Part shown: one piece after another, positions 15,659 to 18,996 of the stretch
How positions within the stretch are numbered: the stretch's first letter is position 1
How the letters are laid out: each line of letters starts with the position of its first letter
Origin: Haloferax elongans ATCC BAA-1513
Lineage (GTDB): Archaea; Halobacteriota; Halobacteria; Halobacteriales; Haloferacaceae
DNA length: 64,000 nucleotides
Assembly (NCBI RefSeq): GCF_000336755.1
Contig: NZ_AOLK01000015.1
Span: 405,509-469,508 of the forward strand
Direction of reading: 5' to 3'
The notes under the pieces: model-generated
The model's database searches: none
Told to the model about the DNA's origin: nothing
Seen by the model: the letters and a program-made list of their open reading frames with translations, nothing else
Program-made: the position numbers and the translations under genes

Positions 15659-16951
15659 TCAGTCTTCGCGTACGTCAGCGCCGAGGTCGCGCATCGTCTC
15701 GAAGAAGTTCGGGAACGACACGTCGACGTGTTCCGACCCGGCGACGGTCGTCTCGCCGTCGGCCACGAGGCCAGCAATGGCCAGCGACATGACGATACGG
15801 TGGTCGTGGCGACCGTCGACGTCGGCACCGACGAGGTCGGTCTGGCCGCCGTGGATGGTGAGGCGGTCCTGCTCTTCTGTGACGTGGGCGTTCATCTTGG
15901 ACAGTTCTTCGGCCATCGCGCTGACGCGGTCTGTCTCCTTGTACCGGACGTGTTCGCAGTTCTCGATGACCGTGTCGCCGTTGGCAATCGCACCGAGGAC
16001 CGCAATCGTCGGCAGGAGGTCGGGCGTGTCGCCGACATCGACGGTAATCCCCGAGAGCGGGGCAGGTGAGACGGTCAGTTCACCGGCTTCTTCGTCCCAA
16101 TCAACTTCTGCGCCCATGTCGCGGACGATATCGACGATAGCGCTGTCTCCCTGCGCGGAGGGGCGTGCACCTTCGATGACGACAGAGTCGCCCTCGGCAC
16201 CGGCAACTGCACCCGCTGCAAGGAGGTACGACATCGACGAGAAGTCGCCGGGGACGCTGTACTCGCCGCCAGTCGGGCGGTACGACTGCCCGCCGGGGAC
16301 CGAGAATCCCTCGTCGGTTCGCTCGGCTTCGATGCCGAAGTCAGCCAGCACTTCCAGCGTGATATCGACGTACGGGGCAGACTTGAGTTCAGTCGTCAGT
16401 TCGACGTCGATACCCTCGTCGGTGACGGCCCCGGCCATCAGGAGCGCCGTGATGTACTGCGAGGAGACGTCGCCGGGGATTTCGACTGTGCCGCCGGTCA
16501 TTCCGTCACCGACGACCAGTGGAGCCAGTCCGTTTCGTCGTGTGCTCTCCGCACGGCCGTCGAGGTCGGAGACGGCTTCGAGAAGCGGACCTTGTGGGCG
16601 CGAGCGGAGGGATTCGTCGCCGGTGAGGACAGTTAGGTTCTCGCCCAGTCCGGCACAGGCCGTGACGAGTCGCATCGTCGTCCCCGAGTTGGCGCAGTCG
16701 ATGACGTCTGCTGGCGTCTCGGGTCGGCCGTCGAAGCCCGTCACCTCGACCGTCTGTCCCTCGCGGTCGACACTGCCGCCGAAGCCCTCGACAGCGCGCA
16801 TTGTCGCCTTCGTGTCGGCGCTGACGAGCGCGTCGCGAACGACCGCGCCGTCGCTGTATCCGGCGGCAAGAATGGCTCTGTGCGTGTAGCTCTTCGACGG
16901 AGGTGCTCGTGTTCGACCCCGAACGCGAGACTGCGAGATGTGGGCGTCCAT
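15659..16951 (-). CDS. aroA: 3-phosphoshikimate 1-carboxyvinyltransferase (EPSP synthase)
   Basis: This 430-residue enzyme transfers enolpyruvate from PEP to shikimate 3-phosphate, the sixth shikimate step; its product is the substrate of the chorismate synthase encoded nearby. Recognisable motifs are [14 protein letters not shown] (PEP and phosphate binding), [28 protein letters not shown], the [13 protein letters not shown] repeat, and [16 protein letters not shown] near the C-terminus. Length is typical. A weak TATA-like GATACTATC lies about 15-25 nt upstream of the start on the minus strand. Confidence 0.94.
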
Positions 16952-17126
16952 ACCCGGGCGTCGTCAGGGGATAGTATCAGGGTACCGGACGCGGCGACGT
17001 TCTCATATGGTTAGAATAACGACCATTACCTTAGGCTACGAACGTCAACGTGCGTCAGGGGTGCTTCGAAGCGCACAGTCCGGGACGATGGTTGGATACT
17101 GTTCGTCCAGTGCTGACGGGGCGTCT
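16952..17126. other. Spacer between aroA and the structured hairpin
   Basis: There is no convincing reading frame. It contains the divergent aroA promoter and AT-containing stretches (around 17009-17035) that could act as a promoter reading toward the hairpin at 17127-17203. I looked for tRNA, 7S RNA and RNase P RNA landmarks and did not find them. Confidence 0.4.
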
Positions 17127-17203
17127 CGGCGGTTCCGGCGGCTATCACACGGGGAGTCCTTGCCCGAGTAGACTCCCCGCGTGGCCGAAACCGGAAACCG
17201 CCG
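17127..17203. ncRNA. 77-nt near-continuous hairpin, candidate structured RNA
   Basis: An imperfect inverted repeat spans the whole element. From the base: CGGCGGTT/AACCGCCG (8 bp), a bulged A, CCGG/CCGG, a three-base AAA bulge, CGGC/GCCG, a TAT bulge, CAC/GTG, one A/C mismatch, then CGGGGAGTC/GACTCCCCG (9 bp) closing a 12-nt loop (CTTGCCCGAGTA). It lies upstream of the TATA box of the M24 peptidase, so it is not in that gene's predicted leader. It could be a small RNA, a terminator-like structure or a DNA-level inverted repeat. The strand is not determined and expression is unknown. Confidence 0.4.
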
Positions 17204-17248
17204 TACCAGACGCGAGGCCTTTACTACCACCCCAGACAACCCCGGAGT

Positions 17249-18424
17249 ATGGAACCCGACTTCTCTCGACTCACCGAGTTCCTCGGCGACGACTTCGACG
17301 GCTATCTCATCTCCGCCGATGGCAGCGACTCGAATCAGTTGTACCTCTCGGGATTCGACGCGCCGGACCCGTACGTGACGCTCTTCACTCCGGACGAAAC
17401 TGCCCTCCTCGTCTCCGCGCTCGAATACGGACGCGCGAAGAAAGAGAGCCGCGCCGACACCGTTTCTCGACTCGCCGACTACGACTACCGCCAGAAGTAC
17501 ACCGAATATGGCCCAACTGTCGGGAAAGCGAAGGCGATTGCCGAGTTCCTCGCCGACCACGGCGTCGAGACACTCGCGACGCCCGCCGACTTCCCGCTCG
17601 GCCTCGCTGACAGCCTCCGCGACGAGGGTGTCGCGGTCGACGCAGAAACCGACGACGTGCTGACAAAAATCCGCGCAGTCAAGTCCGACGAGGAAGTCGA
17701 ACACATCCACGCGGCACAGAAAGCGAACGAGGCGTCGATGCAGGCGGCAGAAGACCTCATCCGCGCCGCCGACGTGGCCGACGACGGCACGCTCCACTAC
17801 GAGGGCGAACCGCTGACGAGCGAGCGAGTCAAAGAGGAAATCGAGATTACGCTGCTCCGACACGGCTGTGCCCTCGACGAGACTATCGTCGCCTGTGGTG
17901 CCGATGCCGCCGACCCCCACGACCGTGGAAGCGGCCCGCTCTCTGCTGACGAAGCCATTATCGTCGATATCTTCCCGCGAGACAAGGAGACGAAGTACAA
18001 CGGCGACATGACCCGGACGTTCGTCAAAGGCGAGCCGACCGAAGCGGTCCGCGAATGGTTCGACCTCACCGAAGAAGCCTTCCACGCGGCACTCGACGCC
18101 ATCGAACCGGGTGCGACCGGCGAAGACGTCCACGACGCCGTCTGCGACGTGTACGAAGCGGCTGGCGAGAACACACTTCGCGCGAATCCGACTGCTGAAA
18201 CCGGATTCATCCACAGCACCGGCCACGGCGTCGGACTCGACGTTCACGAACTCCCGTCTGTGAGCCAAGCCGGCGAGGAACTCGAACCCGGACACGTCAT
18301 CACTATCGAGCCTGGCCTCTACGACCCTGAAATCGGCGGAGTCAGAATCGAGGACCTCGTGGTCGTCACCGAAGACGGCTACGAGAACCTGACCGACTAT
18401 CCGGTCGAACTGGTCGTCGAATAA
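17249..18424 (+). CDS. M24 family metallopeptidase (Xaa-Pro aminopeptidase-like)
   Basis: This 391-residue protein has the creatinase-type N-terminal domain (1-150) and the pita-bread catalytic domain. The five metal ligands are visible: Asp in IIVDIFPRD, Asp in NGDMTRTF, His in HSTGHGVGLDVHELP, Glu in ITIEPGLYDPE and Glu in RIEDLVVV. This pattern fits aminopeptidase P/prolidase enzymes that remove residues next to proline; which substrate is used cannot be read. The TATA-like CTTTACTACC at about 17219-17228 precedes the ATG by about 20 nt. It is monocistronic. Confidence 0.85.
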   Translation: MEPDFSRLTEFLGDDFDGYLISADGSDSNQLYLSGFDAPDPYVTLFTPDETALLVSALEYGRAKKESRADTVSRLADYDYRQKYTEYGPTVGKAKAIAEFLADHGVETLATPADFPLGLADSLRDEGVAVDAETDDVLTKIRAVKSDEEVEHIHAAQKANEASMQAAEDLIRAADVADDGTLHYEGEPLTSERVKEEIEITLLRHGCALDETIVACGADAADPHDRGSGPLSADEAIIVDIFPRDKETKYNGDMTRTFVKGEPTEAVREWFDLTEEAFHAALDAIEPGATGEDVHDAVCDVYEAAGENTLRANPTAETGFIHSTGHGVGLDVHELPSVSQAGEELEPGHVITIEPGLYDPEIGGVRIEDLVVVTEDGYENLTDYPVELVVE

Positions 18425-18471: not shown

Positions 18472-18996
18472 TTAACTGTCGAGGGCGTTGTCACCCGCCT
18501 GTTCGGGCGACGCGGTCGCATCGAGCCAGTCGGAATTGGCTTCGCGCCACTCTTGTAACAGGGCTTCGAGTGCGTCGGCGGTCTTCGGCGTGATGACGCC
18601 CGCGGCCTGCCTAACGACTGTTCCGTCTTCGATAAGCAGCGCATAGATGTTCCCCTCGCCGAGGAGACCGAGACGGCGCTGGAGTGCCGTCTTGTCGACC
18701 CGCGCCATGAGCGCGTTATCGTGCCGCTTGTTCCGCGCGGCACCAGGGGACATCCCGCCGCCACCGCCGAACGACGGCATCATCCCGCTTCGGCCACCGA
18801 GAACCATCAGTTCGTAGTACTCGAAGTGGTCGTAGGTCTCGGAGAGTTCTTCTGCGAACCCGCGCCACGACCCGACAAGCGACTGCTGTCGACGGTCGAA
18901 ACTGATGAGCAAGAGCGTCTGCTCACCGTCCAGATCGTCCGGTAAGACGACCTTTTGACCGCTCGTATCTTGTGAGGGGAGGCGCGGGAAGTCCAC
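18472..18996 (-). CDS. Thioredoxin-fold-like protein, possibly ATP10-like
   Basis: This 174-residue protein starts at a GTG. LLLISFDRRQQSLVGSWRGFAEEL looks like the beta-alpha start of a peroxiredoxin-type thioredoxin fold without the CxxC, and NIYALLIEDGTVVRQAAGVITPKTADALEALL resembles the final strand-helix of such folds. The layout recalls ATP10-type and other redox-inactive thioredoxin-like proteins. A glycine-rich loop (FGGGGGMSPG) lies in the middle. No cysteine is present, so redox catalysis is unlikely. It has a strong TATA box preceded by a palindrome. The family assignment is tentative. Confidence 0.55.
   Translation of the reverse strand: MDFPRLPSQDTSGQKVVLPDDLDGEQTLLLISFDRRQQSLVGSWRGFAEELSETYDHFEYYELMVLGGRSGMMPSFGGGGGMSPGAARNKRHDNALMARVDKTALQRRLGLLGEGNIYALLIEDGTVVRQAAGVITPKTADALEALLQEWREANSDWLDATASPEQAGDNALDS

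Follow-up and report, generated by a model that had tools for sequence, protein, structure and literature searches.

The question raised by this locus of a Haloferax genome is what kind of element a long hairpin can be when it lies between aroA and the gene of an M24 peptidase and no gene overlaps it, mechanical open reading frames aside. A first, sequence-only reading of the DNA had described here a hairpin of 28 bp with five stems and a 12-nt loop in a gene-free spacer. Folding bore out the structure at every coordinate, with stems of 8, 4, 4, 3 and 9 bp on the plus strand at 17127-17203, and the gene-free setting stood as well. The MFE of the plus-strand hairpin is -49.9 kcal/mol (z = -6.4), none of 200 dinucleotide shuffles being as stable, and that of the minus strand is -53.9 kcal/mol (z = -6.6, likewise against dinucleotide shuffles). 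Throughout the window, by which we mean the whole 64-kb stretch of DNA analysed, position 17127 has the lowest energy among 31,962 plus-strand segments of 77 nt taken at a step of 2, and the next unrelated plus-strand site reaches -45.9 kcal/mol in segments of the same length. The hairpin and its surroundings are as follows.

15659..16951, minus strand: aroA (EPSP synthase), the divergent neighbour.
17010..17032, plus strand: distal promoter-like block, GTTAGAATAACGACCATTACCTT, the proposed promoter of a long leader, matching a block upstream of the CBS gene described below.
17121..17126, plus strand: outer extension GCGTCT, which prolongs the stem outward by pairing with AGACGC at 17208-17213, with an asymmetric 4-nt bulge.
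17127..17203, plus strand: the whole hairpin, containing an hBHBh' motif, with the energy given above and covariation among relatives.
17220..17228, plus strand: proximal TATA-like box, TTTACTACC, invariant in 15 of 15 genomes of the genus and placed 29 nt ahead of the ATG.
17249..18424, plus strand: HVO_1309 orthologue encoding the M24 peptidase (Creatinase_N + Peptidase_M24).

Two further features of this neighbourhood may be recorded beside the hairpin. About 45 nt at 16960-17004, upstream of aroA and including GTATCAGGGTACCGGACGCGGCGACGTTCTC, are nearly identical throughout the genus and partly so in other genera, and are likely the aroA promoter; after the M24 gene, a protein of 174 aa is encoded at 18475-18996 on the minus strand, for which a Pfam search gave no match.

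It is in the interruptions of the stem where the nature of the hairpin begins to appear. The sequence-only reading had noticed small bulges, and these are indeed present, but what it left unrecognised is that two of them measure exactly 3 nt around a helix of exactly 4 bp, which makes them a BHB, the motif recognised by the archaeal splicing endonuclease EndA according to the definition in PMC7714728. The form is the canonical one, with a central helix CGGC/GCCG, 3-nt bulges TAT and AAA, and longer helices on either side. In the MFE fold both bulges lie 3' of their own helix strand, and the central helix is bordered by CCGG/CCGG as outer stem and by CAC/GTG as inner stem, with six contiguous outer pairs and three inner ones, in keeping with the h and h' of a substrate for the euryarchaeal alpha2 EndA. 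The reverse complement places the bulges 5' of the helix strands, which is the wrong polarity for EndA. In each bulge this enzyme cuts between the second and the third base, and therefore the predicted intron runs from 17145 to 17189. The gene endA is present in this genome as one ORF with two domain matches to PF01974 (E = 1.3e-26). The parts of the motif, with pairings taken from the fold and cuts from the BHB geometry, are listed here.

17135..17138, plus strand: outer helix h, 5' strand CCGG, pairing with 17191-17194.
17139..17142, plus strand: central 4-bp helix, 5' strand CGGC.
17143..17145, plus strand: 5' three-nt bulge TAT, of constant length in 14 genomes, with the predicted cut at 17144/17145.
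17145..17189, plus strand: predicted intron, 45 nt.
17146..17158, plus strand: inner helix h', 5' strand, pairing with 17171-17183 with one A/C interruption.
17162..17167, plus strand: loop motif GCCCGA.
17184..17187, plus strand: central 4-bp helix, 3' strand GCCG.
17188..17190, plus strand: 3' three-nt bulge AAA, with the predicted cut at 17189/17190.
17191..17194, plus strand: outer helix h, 3' strand CCGG.

We suggest keeping in mind that a BHB motif is not rare by chance, as about 0.8 are expected per strand in 64 kb when Watson-Crick pairs only are counted, and therefore our argument draws on position, conservation and a published orthologue, and not on the motif alone. The orthologue comes from Schwarz et al. 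2020 (PMC7714728), where circRNA-seq of Haloferax volcanii yielded one new EndA product, a circular intron of 46 nt, whose source is the 192-nt 5' UTR of HVO_1309, an M24 peptidase. The same paper relates that the HVO_1309 intron was cut in vitro by recombinant EndA and that repression of endA lowered the level of HVO_1309; its authors knew one other mRNA case, cbf5, and could not tell if the intron serves any function. In our comparison, a single M24 match at E<=1e-40 turned up per Haloferax genome, and the cut rule applied above predicts an intron of 46 nt in the genomes of the volcanii group, which is the published HVO_1309 length. Judging by the gene, the intron length and the nearest relatives, the hairpin of this window and the intron in the HVO_1309 5' UTR are almost certainly the same element. 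Very probably, then, the M24 peptidase mRNA carries this hairpin in its 5' UTR as a BHB intron, released by EndA, with its splicing here assigned by analogy with H. volcanii. The earlier remark that no matching haloarchaeal RNA family was known gives way to this kinship with the HVO_1309 type, despite the fact that Rfam returned no family at gathering score (its best hit, a plant-virus element, had 20.7 bits vs. a cut-off of 100).

The promoters of the locus need to be considered in this light, given that the hairpin had been taken not to be a leader of the peptidase gene on the ground that it lies upstream of the TATA box. The box is there, but the conclusion drawn from it is probably wrong, for the 192-nt UTR of H. 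volcanii includes the intron (PMC7714728). In the genomes of the volcanii group, as measured in G013 and G014, the position 192 nt ahead of the ATG is preceded at about 25 nt by a TATA-like CATATAT box, a spacing that fits a promoter for a 192-nt leader. The distal block of the window departs from its volcanii-group counterpart and lacks a clear TATA consensus; with GTTAGAATAACGACCATTACCTT vs. GTTAGAATCACGAGCATTCCTTT in the species that bear the CBS gene, it retains the promoter-like block of that gene. In addition, the proximal TATA-like box suggests, from its sequence and place, a second peptidase message, leaderless and intron-free, beside the long one.

Put together, these elements permit the following mechanism to be proposed. 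Transcription would proceed from the distal promoter (~17010-17035), with a start presumably near 17057, and through the hairpin, whose plus-strand RNA would fold into hBHBh'; EndA would then cleave both 3-nt bulges behind their second base and release 17145-17189, and the intron would be circularised, by analogy with H. volcanii, while the exons are presumably joined. Even after joining, the leader would retain a short hairpin, formed by TTCCGG-CGGCTAA-CCGGAA. We infer that removal of the large hairpin would leave a shorter leader and favour better expression of the peptidase, and a leaderless mRNA, started at the proximal TATA-like box, may coexist with the spliced one.

The conservation of the hairpin was followed in the aroA-M24 spacer of all 15 genomes of the genus. 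It is found in 14 of them, one copy each and in the same place, and the alignment of these 14 carriers has 92.6% of its cells paired. Changes on both sides were observed in 14 of 31 pairs, as compared with 7.1 +/- 1.8 in shuffles, none of the 500 reaching the observed value, and sliding the pairing partner along the alignment destroyed the covariation signal; the compensatory changes in relatives that the sequence-only reading had named as a check of its hairpin are therefore real. G-U outnumbers A-C by 42 to 6 cells and by 14 to 4 pairs, the latter being the safer figure because alignment cells are not independent. Equal numbers are expected if there is no strand preference, and thus this excess indicates selection on the plus-strand RNA. 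Both BHB bulges have 3 nt in 14 of 14 genomes, with no length variation, and all four pairs of the central helix are standard in 13 of them, H. denitrificans having A-G at one pair; elsewhere in the motif, H. massiliensis has T-T at the first inner pair, and the CBS-bearing species have C-C in the outer helix. The predicted intron measures 45-47 nt across the 14 genomes, and the distance from the 3' site to the ATG is 59 nt in every genome with a scan-called homologous motif. None of the 14 departs from the loop sequence GCCCGA, which lies next to a stem that varies freely, and inspection by eye of the leader and the 3' exon found no conserved partner for it.

Beyond the genus, a covariance model search of 170 family genomes plus 391 class genomes (86 genera sampled) matched only Haloferax, and no such hairpin was found in 14 short aroA-M24 spacers from other genera. 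A weak match in one genome (G115), which lies inside a threonine synthase-like coding frame, was set aside as chance. A repeat or mobile element (MITE) was also ruled out, the hairpin being single-copy in this genome.

Where the intron may have come from is indicated by four genomes, those of G005, G006, H. marinum (G007) and H. profundi (G012), in which a gene for a CBS-domain protein of 139 residues stands between aroA and the hairpin site.

L012:1063-1479, and also within the spacers of L009, L010 and L016, the last one belonging to H. marinum: CBS-domain gene, 139 aa.

In G005, G006 and H. profundi, the last CBS codons, GAR TTC CCG CGG followed by TAA or TAG, supply the BHB with its 5' half, and the predicted 5' cut falls directly behind the stop codon (CGGTAA/A or CGGTAG/A, the slash marking the cut), while in the species devoid of the gene a relic of the CBS gene end constitutes their 5' arm. 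The CBS gene is also found in the same place in another genus, g26 (G164-G166), with a short gap to M24 and no hairpin, and in G167 another stretch lies in between. In a tree of M24 plus aroA, the CBS-bearing species group together (99%) as the sister of the window and H. larsenii (90%), the latter (G004) being the nearest relative of the window, and the volcanii group with G010 is placed on the other side (98%). The occurrence in g26 suggests an ancestral CBS gene, and on that assumption at least two losses of it took place in which the hairpin was retained. H. marinum, nested in the CBS-bearing group, has kept the CBS gene intact and lost the BHB, and thus provides a natural comparison. The pairing conserved throughout the genus, the retention of the hairpin after two CBS losses and the invariant loop together indicate that the intron is under selection.

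The CBS-bearing species illustrate a route by which a gene's end can give rise to an intron of this sort. As a tentative scenario, which we offer as a conjecture, the intron might have arisen inside a two-gene transcript, at the junction of the genes, with the CBS end (Glu-Phe-Pro-Arg-stop) serving as the 5' half of the EndA site and cleavage after the CBS stop setting the expression of each gene apart; it might then have been kept after CBS loss as a leader intron, with a functional circular product bearing GCCCGA. The same arrangement lends itself to another reading, namely that EndA works at this locus as a processing nuclease that cuts the peptidase mRNA free of an upstream transcript and leaves the exons unjoined. 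A CBS stop that ends exactly at the predicted 5' cut would suit clean 3'-end formation of the CBS mRNA, and the available text on HVO_1309 reports no joined exon junction (PMC7714728), but the intron described there is circular in H. volcanii, which means that a ligase acts on the products; we regard processing without joining as possible, if on the doubtful side. Rather unlikely, in our view, is a free-standing sRNA made from the old CBS promoter and acting in trans through its GCCCGA loop, with EndA cutting as an incidental event or as maturation. This would agree with a loop that is invariant in 14 genomes, with an upstream promoter-like block that outlasts CBS loss, and with a 77-nt sRNA adjoining aroA in an H. 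mediterranei listing (PMC5852579); it does not agree with bulge and helix lengths fixed to the needs of EndA, nor with an H. volcanii orthologue that is spliced out of the leader (PMC7714728).

The sequence-only reading had left the choice among a structured small RNA, a terminator and a binding site for a protein, and it is the structured RNA element that survives. A DNA palindrome, working as an operator or cruciform at the peptidase promoter, is very improbable: the hairpin does lie directly upstream of the proximal TATA-like box, and an inverted repeat would likewise keep its pairs, but G-U over A-C by seven to one is unexpected for DNA, the asymmetric 3-4-3 bulges are fixed, and the orthologue is cut by EndA (PMC7714728). 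A terminator of an upstream transcript has just as slight a chance, for even though the hairpin comes after the CBS stop codon in the CBS-bearing species and hairpins precede some H. volcanii termination sites (PMC7237163), no T run directly follows it (its 3' flank is TACCAGACGCGAGGCC), it is kept after CBS loss, its place is in a leader, and in H. volcanii transcription continues across it into HVO_1309 (PMC7714728).

Archaeal mRNA introns spliced by the tRNA enzyme are very rare, and although this kind is already known from HVO_1309, its maintenance throughout the genus, its origin and its two-cistron form appear to be undescribed. Among known systems, the sRNA HM28_V of Haloferax mediterranei (PMC5852579) resembles the hairpin in being 77 nt long and in lying between aroA and HFX_1377, and differs in its minus-strand listing; compared by length and place, it may correspond to this hairpin as detected by RNA-seq, in which case the strand would disagree. 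The crenarchaeal cbf5 mRNA intron (PMC2738675) is likewise a case of a protein-gene transcript spliced via a BHB, but of another gene, inside a protein-coding gene instead of a leader, and without homology. The pre-tRNA and pre-rRNA substrates of EndA in Haloferax share the 3-4-3 motif, the enzyme and the circularised products (PMC7714728), but are precursors of stable RNAs and not mRNA. The HVO_1309 intron differs from the one proposed here in its stem sequence, that of the volcanii group, in the promoter block, of the CATATAT type in that group and of the CBS type here, and in that its excision has been shown in H. volcanii (PMC7714728) whereas splicing here is predicted; it shares with it the same M24 gene, the leader position and the hBHBh' motif, with 46 nt there and 45 nt here.
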